Shown here: piece after piece, positions 54,470 through 57,918 of the stretch
Layout of the letters: each line of letters starts with the position of its first letter
How positions within the stretch are numbered: position 1 is the stretch's first letter
NCBI RefSeq assembly: GCF_014773225.1
Contig: NZ_JACXAJ010000002.1
Location: 496,001 to 560,000 of the forward strand
Direction: 5' to 3'
Length of the DNA stretch: 64,000 bases
DNA from: Pontibacter aquaedesilientis
GTDB lineage: Bacteria > Bacteroidota > Bacteroidia > Cytophagales > Hymenobacteraceae
Notes under the pieces: model-generated
Databases searched by the model: none
Seen by the model: the letters and a program-made list of their open reading frames with translations, nothing else
What the model was told of the DNA's origin: nothing
Made by a program: the position numbers and the translations under genes

Positions 54470-54516
54470 ATGTACTCAGGGCGGTGACAATGTGCCGCCT
54501 CAATCAAGAGCTAATT

Positions 54517-55074
54517 ATGGAAACCAAAAGTATAGAGCGCTGGAAAACGCTGAAGTCCGAGATTGTATTCGAGCACAAGTGGTATACCCTGCGGCGCGAC
54601 CATGTAGAGCTTCCAAACGGGCAGGAGATGGATGACTACTTTGTGAGCGTGCGGCCGGATGTGGTGCTGACCTTTCCGGTTACAGAAGACGGCCAGGTGC
54701 TGTTTGTGCGGCAGTACAAGCATGCAGCCGGCGACATCTTCATAGAGTTGCCGGGCGGCGTGATCGATGCCCATGAAACTGAGCCCCTGGCCGCTGCCAA
54801 GCGGGAGCTGCTAGAGGAAACAGGCTATACCTCTGACGATGTGGAGCCGCTGCTGCAGGTGATCGATAACCCGACAAAGGACACCAACCGCGTCTATTAC
54901 TTCCTGGCCCGCAACGTGCGCGAAGTGGCTGCGCAGGACCTGGATGAAAGTGAGAACATCGAGGTCCTGAAAGTGCCGCTGCATGAAGTAGAACAGATGA
55001 TTCTAAACGGCCAGATCAACGTGGCCGGTTCAGTGGCGCTTTGCCTGCTGGCCCTCCGGAAACTAGCAAAGTAG
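54517..55074 (+). CDS. Nudix hydrolase (ADP-ribose-pyrophosphatase-like)
   Basis: A 185-residue cytoplasmic enzyme from ATG 54517; an ATG/ACG stretch from 54484 adds 11 atypical residues. RPDVVLTFPVTEDGQVLFVR (about 46-65) leads into the Nudix box at about 80-104: GGVIDAHETEP, then KRELLEETGY with the catalytic Glu residues in REL-EE. One extra residue is present between the first Glu and the Arg relative to the canonical spacing. It likely cleaves a nucleotide diphosphate derivative, such as ADP-ribose or a nucleotide sugar. It converges with the aminotransferase-GRAS gene, whose stop is only six bases away. Confidence 0.9.
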   Translation: METKSIERWKTLKSEIVFEHKWYTLRRDHVELPNGQEMDDYFVSVRPDVVLTFPVTEDGQVLFVRQYKHAAGDIFIELPGGVIDAHETEPLAAAKRELLEETGYTSDDVEPLLQVIDNPTKDTNRVYYFLARNVREVAAQDLDESENIEVLKVPLHEVEQMILNGQINVAGSVALCLLALRKLAK

Positions 55075-55080
55075 CGTATG

Positions 55081-57237
55081 TTAGGCCTCGGCTCGCCAGG
55101 CTGTGCTGGCAATGATGCTGGTGCCTTTCCAGTGCAAAGTATAGCCCGCTCCATTTTGCACCAGGCTAAAATCAGGATGTAACCGCAGCTCATCGGTGAG
55201 GTCCTGTGCCAGATCCGGATGTGCAATTGGGCCAAAGCCGTTGCGAACCAAACGGCGTTGCCAGGCATCGCTGCGCTCGTGCCGCTCTACCCGGTCCGCG
55301 CCCTCGCTGGCGACCACATTGATGATCTCACGTCCAAAAAATTCCTGCTCGATGATCTGCCGCTCCGGCATGTCCTGCGGCAACAGCGTGTCCAGCACAT
55401 CAAACACGGTATGGTAATGGCGGAGCGACTCGCGCAGGCGCGGCAGGTAGTCCAGCTTGTTGTGTTCTGAGTCCGGCTCAGTCAGGGTAAACACCAGTGG
55501 CTTCAAAGCCCTGATCTGGCGCAGTACCTTGTCACGCTCATCAGGCTGCGCCACCAGTTGGTCAGGTATGTGGTGCAGCGTCAGGGCGGAGTTAATCACC
55601 AGGGCCTGCTCCGGGGCTATGCGGAGCGTGCTGAGGTCAAAGTCCTCGAGCCGCGATGCGATACCCTCGTAGCTGAACGGGATACCGAGCCTGCGGGCAT
55701 GCTCCTCCAGCCGTATACCTGTCTCCTGCAGTCGGCGTGCCGGCTCCTCGGCGCTGTCCGGAATGTCTATACCTGTCAGGTGCAGGGAGGGGCTGCCGCC
55801 GGGCAACTTGGCCAGCTGCTCCAGGAGGTGAAACCACTGCAGTCCGCTTCCTATACCTAAATCCAGCAGGTATACCTTGTTTGCTCCGGCTATGGCTGAC
55901 AAAATGATCTGGTTGGCAAACCGATGTCCGAACGAGACCAGCGGCGTGGCGTTCACCAGCACATTGAAGGCCGAGATCATGTCCATCACCCCGTAAGTGG
56001 AGTTGTAGAGGTTGCCGGCGTGAAGAGTGGTTTGCTGGTTTCTGGCCGCTAATGCCCTGGCAAAGGCCAAGGCCACCCTATCCGCAGCATTGTGCAGTCC
56101 CGAAGCCGCCGTTATCAGCTCGTTTATTTTTTCAGAGGCATCGGCTGTGTCGTGCTGCAGGCTGTTTCCCGTCGCCAGCACCTGGGCCAGCAAGGGCTGC
56201 TGCGGGTATAGGGCGGTGGGGTGAAGTATGTTTTCTAGCATAGCGATAAGGTATAGTTGGTTTTCATCTGGTCCGACGGTGATGCGCAGGCTAAAGCTGT
56301 CTTCAGTGCGGCGCGACTGTATCTGGTGTTCCAGCAGGTGCCTGTCAATTACCTCGGCTTTGATGCCCGCGTCCAGCAGCAGGAAGTTGCTCTGCGATGG
56401 CCAGTACTGCACACCCAGGCGCTGCAGTGCCTGCTCCAGTTTGAACTTCCCGCATCGGGTTGCGGCCAGTGTCTGGTTTAAGAAGTGCCCGTCTGCCAGC
56501 GCAGCCAAAGCAGCCACCTGCGCCAGTTGGTTCACATTATAGGGCTGCTTCACTTGCAGTACCTTTTCGATCACTCCTTCCTGTGCGATCATATACCCTA
56601 TCCGGAGCGAGGCAAGGCCATAGGCTTTGGAGAAGGTGCGCAGAATAACCAGGTTTGGAAATTGCGGAAGCAAGGCAAGTGCGTCGCCATAGTCGGGGGC
56701 TGTCACATATTCGATATAGGCCTCATCCACGACTAGTATCACATGCGGGGGCAGCTTACGCAGCAAATACTCCAGTTCCGACATGGGCAGGTAAGTGCCT
56801 GTCGGGTTGTTGGGGTTGCACAGAAAGCACAGCCGGGTGGAGTCATCGACTTTGCTTAGCAGGGAGTGAACATCCACCTCGTAGGCACTGGTAAGCGGGG
56901 CTATCCGAAATGGGACGTGTAAGGCTTGCGCCTCTTGCCTGTACAGCGGATAAGAGGGGCTAAGCGAAAGCACACTTTCTACCCGTGAAGGACTGCAAAA
57001 CCGGCGCACCAACAAGGAGATCAGTTCAGCAGACCCGCTGCCGACAAGGATTTCGGAAGGGCGTATACCTAACTTGGACGCAAGGACGGTCCGCAAGGGG
57101 GCGGCATCCGGATGCGGATAGCTGTTGATTTGAAAAAGGGCCTGCTGCAAGGCTTCCATCACTTTAGGGGAAGTGCCAAAGAGGTTTTCGTTTGAAGCGG
57201 CGCAGTAAGCGGGTCTGGTGTTCCCCATGAGGCTCAA
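55081..57237 (-). CDS. HisC-like PLP aminotransferase fused to a bacterial GRAS domain
   Basis: A 718-residue two-domain protein. Residues about 10-340 are a class I/II aminotransferase of the histidinol-phosphate type: NPNNPTG (141-147), DEAY (171-174) with the ring Asp, TFSKAYGL with the Schiff-base Lys204, and LRIGY with the phosphate-binding Arg. Residues about 345-718 carry every landmark of GRAS proteins in order: a leucine-rich helical part, a VHIID-like VYLLDLGIGSGLQW (455-468), RPGG-like LPGGSPSLHLTGI (478-490), INSALTLHHI (548-557), HYHTVFDVLD and EFFGREIINVVASEGADRVE (632-651), and a SAW-like end with W703 and STAW (711-714). GRAS domains are Rossmann methyltransferase-like. No membrane part or signal. 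Divergent from a MarR-type gene. Confidence 0.88.
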   Translation of the reverse strand: MSLMGNTRPAYCAASNENLFGTSPKVMEALQQALFQINSYPHPDAAPLRTVLASKLGIRPSEILVGSGSAELISLLVRRFCSPSRVESVLSLSPSYPLYRQEAQALHVPFRIAPLTSAYEVDVHSLLSKVDDSTRLCFLCNPNNPTGTYLPMSELEYLLRKLPPHVILVVDEAYIEYVTAPDYGDALALLPQFPNLVILRTFSKAYGLASLRIGYMIAQEGVIEKVLQVKQPYNVNQLAQVAALAALADGHFLNQTLAATRCGKFKLEQALQRLGVQYWPSQSNFLLLDAGIKAEVIDRHLLEHQIQSRRTEDSFSLRITVGPDENQLYLIAMLENILHPTALYPQQPLLAQVLATGNSLQHDTADASEKINELITAASGLHNAADRVALAFARALAARNQQTTLHAGNLYNSTYGVMDMISAFNVLVNATPLVSFGHRFANQIILSAIAGANKVYLLDLGIGSGLQWFHLLEQLAKLPGGSPSLHLTGIDIPDSAEEPARRLQETGIRLEEHARRLGIPFSYEGIASRLEDFDLSTLRIAPEQALVINSALTLHHIPDQLVAQPDERDKVLRQIRALKPLVFTLTEPDSEHNKLDYLPRLRESLRHYHTVFDVLDTLLPQDMPERQIIEQEFFGREIINVVASEGADRVERHERSDAWQRRLVRNGFGPIAHPDLAQDLTDELRLHPDFSLVQNGAGYTLHWKGTSIIASTAWRAEA

Positions 57238-57444
57238 ATTAGGTAGCAGGTTGGATGATTTTAAAGAAAATCTTGGAGCAAGATAACAATTAAAGAGAGA
57301 AGAATACGGAAATAACTATACACTGGGGACAAACATTATTCAATGATTTTTTTTTGTTTTAGATAGTCAGTTTGTAAACGGTTGACTGGCAGAAACTAAA
57401 ACTGCCTATAGGTTGTATATACAATAGTTGCAAAAGCTTATATT

Positions 57445-57918
57445 ATGCGTTTAGAAGAAGAACTAAGGATGAATAAGTTCAGGAGCGTCTTTCAGAAAGC
57501 CTCCCTGAACCTGATGTTTACAGGGGAGTGGCTGATGGCGCGGGTAGACAGCCTGCTGAAACCTTACGATATTTCGTCGCAGCAATACAATGTGCTGCGG
57601 ATTCTGAGAGGGCAGCAGGGCAAGCCCCTCAACCTGTACGCCATACAGGAGCGTATGCTCAACCGCATGTCCAACGCAACGCGGCTAGTGGAAAAGCTGC
57701 GACTCAAAGGCTTGGTAACGCGGGAGCAGTGCGAAGCAAACCGCCGAAAAGTAGAGATCGCGATCACCGAAAAAGGGCTACAACTCCTCGACAAACTCGA
57801 CCCCATGATTGAGCAGATGGAAGAGGATACTTTCAAAGGTGTATCGAGGGCAGAAGCTGGCAGGCTAAGCGATACGCTCGACGCGCTCCGGGAAGAACAT
57901 AGGGCGGCTGGTGGCTAA
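57445..57918 (+). CDS. MarR-family transcriptional regulator
   Basis: A 157-residue winged-helix protein. LLKPYDISSQQYNVLRILRG (about 37-56) starts the DNA-binding domain, QERMLNRMSNATRLVEKLRL (about 68-87) is the recognition helix region, and VTREQCEANRRKVEIAITEK (about 92-111) is the wing with the typical DxRxxx-like ANRRKVEI. The C-terminal helix dimerises. Starts at ATG 57445 or 57469. It is transcribed away from the aminotransferase-GRAS gene across a 207-bp AT-rich gap, the usual arrangement for a MarR regulator and its target. The ligand is unknown. Confidence 0.93.
   Translation: MRLEEELRMNKFRSVFQKASLNLMFTGEWLMARVDSLLKPYDISSQQYNVLRILRGQQGKPLNLYAIQERMLNRMSNATRLVEKLRLKGLVTREQCEANRRKVEIAITEKGLQLLDKLDPMIEQMEEDTFKGVSRAEAGRLSDTLDALREEHRAAGG

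Follow-up and report, generated by a model that had tools for sequence, protein, structure and literature searches.

The locus studied here raises the question of what a single bacterial protein does that joins a HisC-like aminotransferase (AT) to a GRAS domain, and how this domain relates to the GRAS regulators of plants. We analyzed a window of 64,000 nucleotides from the genome of Pontibacter aquaedesilientis, in which the gene for this protein is located.

The fused gene and its neighborhood

The fused gene occupies positions 55081–57237 of the window on the minus strand and comprises 718 codons from a TTG start codon without an internal stop. Judging from sequence alignment, the true start is perhaps not the TTG at 57237 but an ATG three codons in (57228–57226), which would yield a protein of 715 residues, because the ATG of a few relatives aligns there. 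A previous sequence-only reading had claimed an in-frame fusion of a GRAS domain to an aminotransferase and had proposed profile searches and a survey for the same fusion as checks. Both profiles matched well beyond their cut-offs: PF00155 with 167.4 bits (E = 6.8e-49) at residues 14–329, and PF03514 with 296.5 bits (E = 3.4e-88, cut-off 27 bits) at residues 361–715, the latter match spanning positions 14–374 of the 374 in the profile. The GRAS blocks named in that reading (LDLGIGSGLQW, PGG..LTGI, an FFGRE block, INVVASEGADRVERHE and a SAW-like end) were all found in the translation.

GRAS was present in 22 of 50 Pontibacter genomes, and in every one of the 22 both halves lie in a single open reading frame of 716–774 residues. 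The proteins from the 21 other fusion loci are 54–73% identical to the window protein, with both halves similarly conserved. Within the P. aquaedesilientis genome the fused gene is the sole GRAS match. A family sample of 200 Hymenobacteraceae genomes gave 22 GRAS matches, all within the genus Pontibacter; the closest named matches come from Pontibacter, apart from one in Botryobacter ruber. The unfused state does exist in other bacteria, which is the only point in favor of a sequencing error having joined two genes, but one open frame in 22 assemblies of the genus excludes an error in a single genome and refutes this explanation. With E-values and conservation of this kind, a chance match is ruled out. 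The open reading frame is a real gene and the fusion is genuine.

On one side the fused gene is flanked by a divergent gene for a MarR-family regulator (57445–57918, plus strand; PF01047, E = 1.9e-9). At the 22 fusion loci the divergent neighbor is a MarR gene in 14 cases, a nitroreductase-cluster gene in five, a pirin-cluster gene in one and another short open reading frame in two. A palindrome, TTGTATATACAA (57413–57424), is located 20 bases before the ATG of the MarR gene and approximately 175 bases from the fusion. It is exact in 12 of the 14 MarR-adjacent loci and is a likely MarR operator. The exact palindrome was found at two sites in the 4.1-Mb genome, each shortly before a MarR gene, which fits MarR autoregulation. 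The sequence data thus point to autoregulation via TTGTATATACAA, and control of the fusion by MarR is possible. The earlier suggestion that MarR senses the product of the enzyme appears weak, since the palindrome goes with the starts of MarR genes and MarR is the divergent neighbor in 14 of 22 loci. The second palindrome (L207:1501-1548; G000 C12:24522) lies 35 bases before a MarR paralog, which is followed by a gene resembling an aldo/keto reductase (names assigned by eye). A promoter scan yielded nothing usable (three candidates versus 1.5, s.d. 1.3, in shuffled sequences; no terminators versus 2.4). The NUDIX hydrolase gene at 54484–55074 (plus strand) is a convergent neighbor only; its cluster occurs in 19 of 22 loci.

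Predicted folds and catalytic residues

The N-terminal half (residues 14–329; 56251–57198, minus strand) was assigned as a HisC-like PLP aminotransferase domain by PF00155, TIGR01141 and Z-scores of 30–36 with HisC-titled structures. Among PDB sequences it is closest to 3ffh, a HisC (184 bits), and to 4r2n, a phenylalanine aminotransferase (170 bits). The PLP-binding lysine, K204 (56626–56628, minus strand), is equivalent to K214 of E. coli HisC and is invariant in 19 rows. Residues Y55, N157, D184, Y187, S213, K214, R222, R322 and R335 of E. coli HisC are kept in 19 of 19 fused rows; in the window protein, the lysine and its partners are K204, D171, Y174, N144, R212 and Y40. In E. coli HisC, K214 is the lysine that binds PLP. 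The PLP residues, Lys204 among them, are kept, in line with the sequence-only reading, which had described a complete aminotransferase with its catalytic residues intact.

With 277.9 bits against a cut-off of 276.55, this half passes the TIGR01141 (HisC) model marginally, and together with the conserved R322 and R335 this could mark it as a further histidinol-phosphate aminotransferase in the histidine pathway, to which the GRAS part would be incidental. However, D85 of HisC is replaced by alanine in 18 and by glycine in one of the 19 fused rows, the P. aquaedesilientis genome contains a separate HisC with 365 bits, and 11 of 13 genomes searched carry a HisC with 348–377 bits. In an AT tree of 54 rows, moreover, the canonical HisC proteins including the E. 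coli enzyme form a clade of 12 rows (support 100/95), and the ten fused rows retained all fall outside of it. This tree, in which long branches are present, was calculated without eight fused rows and without six "other" AT rows (five identical to linked rows that were kept or dropped, and the long L078). Given the separate HisC and the position outside the HisC clade, the N-terminal half is a HisC-like aminotransferase and not the HisC of histidine synthesis; a role as a second HisC is highly improbable. L078 itself is an 813-residue frame in the same genome (G000 contig C13:96182-97162), in which a HisC-like aminotransferase is joined to an N-terminal region resembling, as judged by eye in the translated sequence, an adenylate-forming enzyme of the PaaK/F390-synthetase type.

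The C-terminal GRAS half (residues 361–715; 55093–56157, minus strand) was modeled by AlphaFold2 with 67 bacterial GRAS rows, resulting in a pLDDT of 93.5 and a pTM of 0.92. The model of the full-length fusion is only fair (pLDDT 79.0, pTM 0.75). Superposition of the predicted GRAS model with plant GRAS structures gave Z-scores of 39.5–43.3 for 348–368 aligned residues at 28–31% identity. Plant GRAS proteins account for the first 12 Foldseek matches and for the first eight rows of a second structural comparison. The PDB fold matches that follow are SAM methyltransferases, led in Foldseek by PsoF, CurJ, SgvM and CmoA; the Z-scores after the plant proteins are 17.9 for CmoA, 17.8 for CysG(N-16), 17.3 for EgtD and 15.6 for SgvM. 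Foldseek places SgvM at rank 16, CysG at rank 25 and a Streptomyces hygroscopicus enzyme, which we take to be MppJ, at ranks 26 and 33. CmoA, CysG and EgtD were discarded as specific fold relatives because they are generic class I methyltransferases.

Class I SAM methyltransferases are marked by a DxGxGxG loop and an acidic residue after strand 2, and both are present in the window GRAS domain. We aligned 81 bacterial rows with three plant rows (DELLA1, SCL7 and RGA) and counted the residues at each site of interest. SAM motif I, DLGIGSGLQW (residues 459–468; 55834–55863, minus strand), is strongly conserved in the bacterial rows (D459 in 70, G461, G463 and Q467 in 81 and G465 in 79 of 81). 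An acid (D or E) occupies position 491 in 81 of 81 bacterial rows (D491 in the window protein), and E531 and N549 are likewise found in all 81. In the three plant rows, position 463 is K/V/N, position 491 is G/P/G and position 531 is A/H/A. Two adjacent histidines, H555 and H556, follow strand 4 (55570–55575, minus strand) and are kept in 80 and 81 of 81 bacterial rows, with H/Y/H and T/H/K in the three plant rows. At the end of strand 5, the motif E587-P588...H592 (55462–55479, minus strand) is conserved in 81, 78 and 80 of 81 rows, respectively. H607 (55417–55419, minus strand), 52 residues after H555, is present in 77 of 81 bacterial rows and is a tyrosine in the three plant rows.

The glycines, the acid and E531 are kept in the bacterial rows and partly lost in the plant rows, so the bacterial domain has the appearance of a functional SAM enzyme, unlike these three plant sequences. 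The predicted fold matches and the signature support the assignment of the GRAS half as a SAM-dependent methyltransferase-like domain with an intact SAM signature, in agreement with the description of bacterial GRAS proteins as Rossmann methyltransferase-like enzymes to which the sequence-only reading had referred. Bacterial GRAS proteins were reportedly described as Rossmann-fold methyltransferases by Zhang, Iyer and Aravind in 2012, who are also said to have placed the origin of GRAS in bacteria. An origin of GRAS as a bacterial methyltransferase is the established view, and that work is cited in PMC4279901, PMC4811876 and PMC9942845.

A different function is suggested by the plant GRAS proteins, which are regulators, and by several bacterial GRAS genes that adjoin sensor kinases or response regulators: the GRAS half might bind SAM or a small molecule and regulate the aminotransferase, or signal, without methylating. 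Against this stands the conservation of the glycines, the acid and E531 in 79–81 of 81 bacterial rows and their partial loss in the plant rows, and the kinase neighborhood is a raw occurrence. We regard a purely regulatory role as improbable and a methyltransferase-like enzyme as the better description of the bacterial domain.

Aminotransferase pairing in other bacteria and the plant branch

Two peptide patterns retrieved 133 GRAS relatives from 84,980 genomes, and the best 80 (18 fused, 62 unfused) were kept. Among these best 80 of 133, an intact HisC-like gene is located on the GRAS strand in 20 of the 62 unfused loci. The paired genes match the AT profile with 257–397 bits, and 6–177 bases separate the matched parts in 18 of the 20 pairs (413 bases in L138 and approximately 2 kb in L133). 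By phylum, pairs were found in 18 of 28 Bacteroidota loci, in the single Rhodothermota locus, in one of 16 Myxococcota loci and in none of 17 others. Approximately 0.22 HisC-like neighbors would be expected by chance, as estimated from the HisC-like genes of 13 genomes after removal of the linked ones; the resulting Poisson P of ~3e-32 for 20 observed neighbors is rough, because 11 of the 13 background genomes belong to one order. Three further loci (L069, L070 and L071) also contain an AT and GRAS pair. This recurring pairing as separate genes is a new observation.

The aminotransferase comes first in the fusion and in both L104 and L105, and GRAS comes first in the other 18 cases. A single clade of all GRAS-linked aminotransferases was rejected in the AT tree (p-AU 0.0009; the test group was set by gene linkage, but after inspection of a first tree). 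This implies either that aminotransferases were recruited two or more times, in both orders, or that the pairing is old and the linkage was lost later on. GRAS and AT distances in 18 separate pairs are correlated (r = 0.74; none of 2000 permutations as high), as joint inheritance predicts, although shared descent alone would also give such a correlation.

In the available stretch of the remaining 42 of 62 unfused loci we found no intact HisC-like gene. One of them, L155, has the aminotransferase as a 165-residue fragment only, and at some loci a partner may be missed because the stretches finish at contig ends. A paired-type aminotransferase used as query against 13 genomes with an AT-less GRAS locus (five Marinilabiliaceae and eight others) gave no match in two of them at E ≤ 1e-20 and only HisC-like proteins of 25–28% identity in 11; the positive control found itself. 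GRAS therefore does not always depend on this partner, and there must be cases in which it acts by itself or together with different proteins.

Other neighbors of GRAS include phosphotriesterase-family genes. At one Paenibacillus locus (L120:5857-8083) a D-2-hydroxyacid dehydrogenase gene comes 4 bases after the GRAS gene, and a Myxococcota GRAS domain is fused to C-terminal CBS domains (L121:5941-7548). Sensor histidine kinases, response regulators or both lie beside GRAS in L113, L119, L122, L125, L132, L158, L161 and L230; these loci come from several phyla, some of the genes were assigned by cluster alone, and the count is a raw occurrence. Small related proteins of 128–150 residues accompany GRAS in L117, L135, L136, L139, L152, L155, L160 and L164, in several loci on both sides, with no Pfam match in three tested. 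Another family, of 129–163 residues, adjoins GRAS in L064, L066, L067, L072, L073 and L074, from several genomes of the taxonomic order that includes P. aquaedesilientis; the one member tested had no Pfam match.

Of 146 genomes from the class to which the Rhodothermales MAG belongs, one contains GRAS, namely the MAG itself, and no further pairs with the aminotransferase first were detected. A pattern search of viral contigs and a search of phages gave no relative. Relatives were found in two plasmid records, both from Skermanella, one of them with an unfused GRAS gene and no annotated aminotransferase within approximately 4 kb. On these searches a mobile or viral origin was rejected. A viral-structure search returned distant methyltransferase-like matches only.

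In a GRAS tree of 84 rows, the three plant sequences group with the fused proteins, L104 and L105 (support 97/80). An AT-less sequence on a very long branch, L114, is placed at the base of this plant-like group (100/99); it comes from a Deltaproteobacteria MAG, with no aminotransferase on its 7.3-kb contig. After removal of L114 and 14 near-duplicate rows, support rises to 100/100 for plants, fused proteins, L104 and L105, and is 98/77 for plants with the fused proteins. The tree is midpoint-rooted, holds three plant sequences on long branches and no charophyte algae, and its bacterial rows were found by two peptide patterns that were themselves drawn from bacterial rows. Within this sample, then, the bacterial sequences closest to plant GRAS are linked to an aminotransferase. 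The sequence-only reading had the fusion and the GRAS signature right; it did not include the occurrence of the two parts as neighboring genes or the relation to the plant branch.

To our knowledge plant GRAS proteins have no aminotransferase half, and we know of no account of the role of GRAS before it became a plant regulator. We consider it conceivable, though less likely than not, that the plant GRAS proteins (DELLA, SCARECROW, SCL) derive from a bacterial methyltransferase that worked as partner of an aminotransferase. The ancestor would have methylated the amino or keto acid handled by the aminotransferase, and plants would have retained the fold and some of the pocket and lost SAM binding, with the AT-then-GRAS pair, which is fused in Pontibacter, as a living bacterial model. 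According to published work, plants acquired GRAS from soil bacteria (PMC9942845, PMC12448838), and a 2025 review describes one bacterial GRAS subgroup that forms a clade with plants (PMC12448838). Our literature search, which was far from exhaustive, yielded no mention of an AT linkage of this subgroup. For the bacterial branch nearest to plants in the sampled tree, the pairing provides a testable chemistry, with PLP and SAM acting on a single amino or keto acid. The search for the ancestral GRAS substrate is thereby narrowed to substrates and products of a HisC-like aminotransferase, among which small ligands of plant GRAS proteins may perhaps be sought as well.

Proposed reaction and comparison with known systems

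Based on these results we propose that the fused protein is probably a bifunctional enzyme, whose PLP domain transaminates and whose GRAS domain methylates the same small amino or keto acid. The fusion, the two predicted folds, the intact PLP and SAM signatures and the recurrent pairing support this. The N-terminal domain would convert an amino acid (or amino phosphate) to the corresponding keto form or back. The GRAS domain, as an active SAM methyltransferase, would methylate the same compound, either ahead of transamination or following it, and fusion or gene neighborhood would keep both steps together. The pathway that transaminates and then modifies, as put forward in the sequence-only reading, is the likeliest reading of the intact SAM signature and the PLP residues; the methyltransferase activity, the single shared substrate, the order of the steps and the product are inferred. 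The 2-hydroxyacid dehydrogenase gene 4 bases past GRAS in Paenibacillus encodes another keto-acid enzyme and was counted in favor of the proposed enzyme.

In the systems of MrsA/MrsB, MppJ and GlmT, a keto acid is C-methylated next to the carbonyl and aminated to a β-methyl amino acid. By analogy, the likeliest single chemistry for the fused enzyme would be C-methylation of a keto acid next to its carbonyl, followed by amination to a β-methyl amino acid, an assignment that we favor only tentatively. The methyltransferase SgvM binds a keto acid with a zinc ion held by H244 and H296 (PMC10502145). H555 and H607 have the same sequence spacing of 52 residues, which is only suggestive of a similar metal site. 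Weak matches to TIGR04543 (2-ketoarginine methyltransferase) occur in 16 of 67 GRAS proteins (7 of 67 for the next best models), and the window GRAS half has no match at E ≤ 0.1 (cut-off 425 bits). In control searches, five of 14 genomes without a GRAS match also matched the model, and 22 weak matches (23–30 bits) were obtained in 16 of 27 genomes. These matches are unspecific, and the identity was discarded except as a hint.

EgtD methylates the amine of histidine, and CysG and BelI methylate a carboxylate. The same two-step enzyme could accordingly carry a GRAS half that methylates nitrogen or oxygen and not carbon, for which CysG(N-16) and EgtD, with Z-scores slightly above that of SgvM, might be taken to speak. 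Gaps this small do not pick a chemistry, however, Foldseek ranks SgvM above CysG, and the histidine spacing, suggestive only, is that of the SgvM zinc ligands. We consider methylation of nitrogen or oxygen slightly less likely and retain C-methylation of a keto acid as the working assignment.

The sequence-only reading knew of no described pathway with this fusion, and a literature search that was not exhaustive likewise gave no account of an AT-GRAS fusion or pairing. The fusion extends the known bacterial GRAS methyltransferases, and its wider interest lies in an aminotransferase that recurs as the partner and in the relation to the plant branch. Bacterial GRAS proteins (PF03514) have the same domain, Rossmann methyltransferase fold and SAM signature, and differ in that an aminotransferase is fused to it here. 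HisC shares the fold, the PLP residues and the match to TIGR01141 with the aminotransferase half, which lies outside the canonical clade, is additional to the true HisC, has D85 replaced and is fused to GRAS. Plant GRAS proteins (DELLA/RGA, SCARECROW, SHORT-ROOT, SCL3 and SCL7) have the fold in common with the bacterial half at 28–31% identity; the three plant rows share N549, E587, R600, F612, R649, E651 and W659 with it, whereas glycine 463 (the second one in the SAM motif), the acid after strand 2 and E531 are missing from them. A functional parallel is provided by the MrsA/MrsB, MppJ, SgvM and GlmT pairs, which follow the same logic of an aminotransferase and a SAM methyltransferase and whose SgvM/MppJ-type structures are among the fold matches, but which show no family-level sequence match to the GRAS half.
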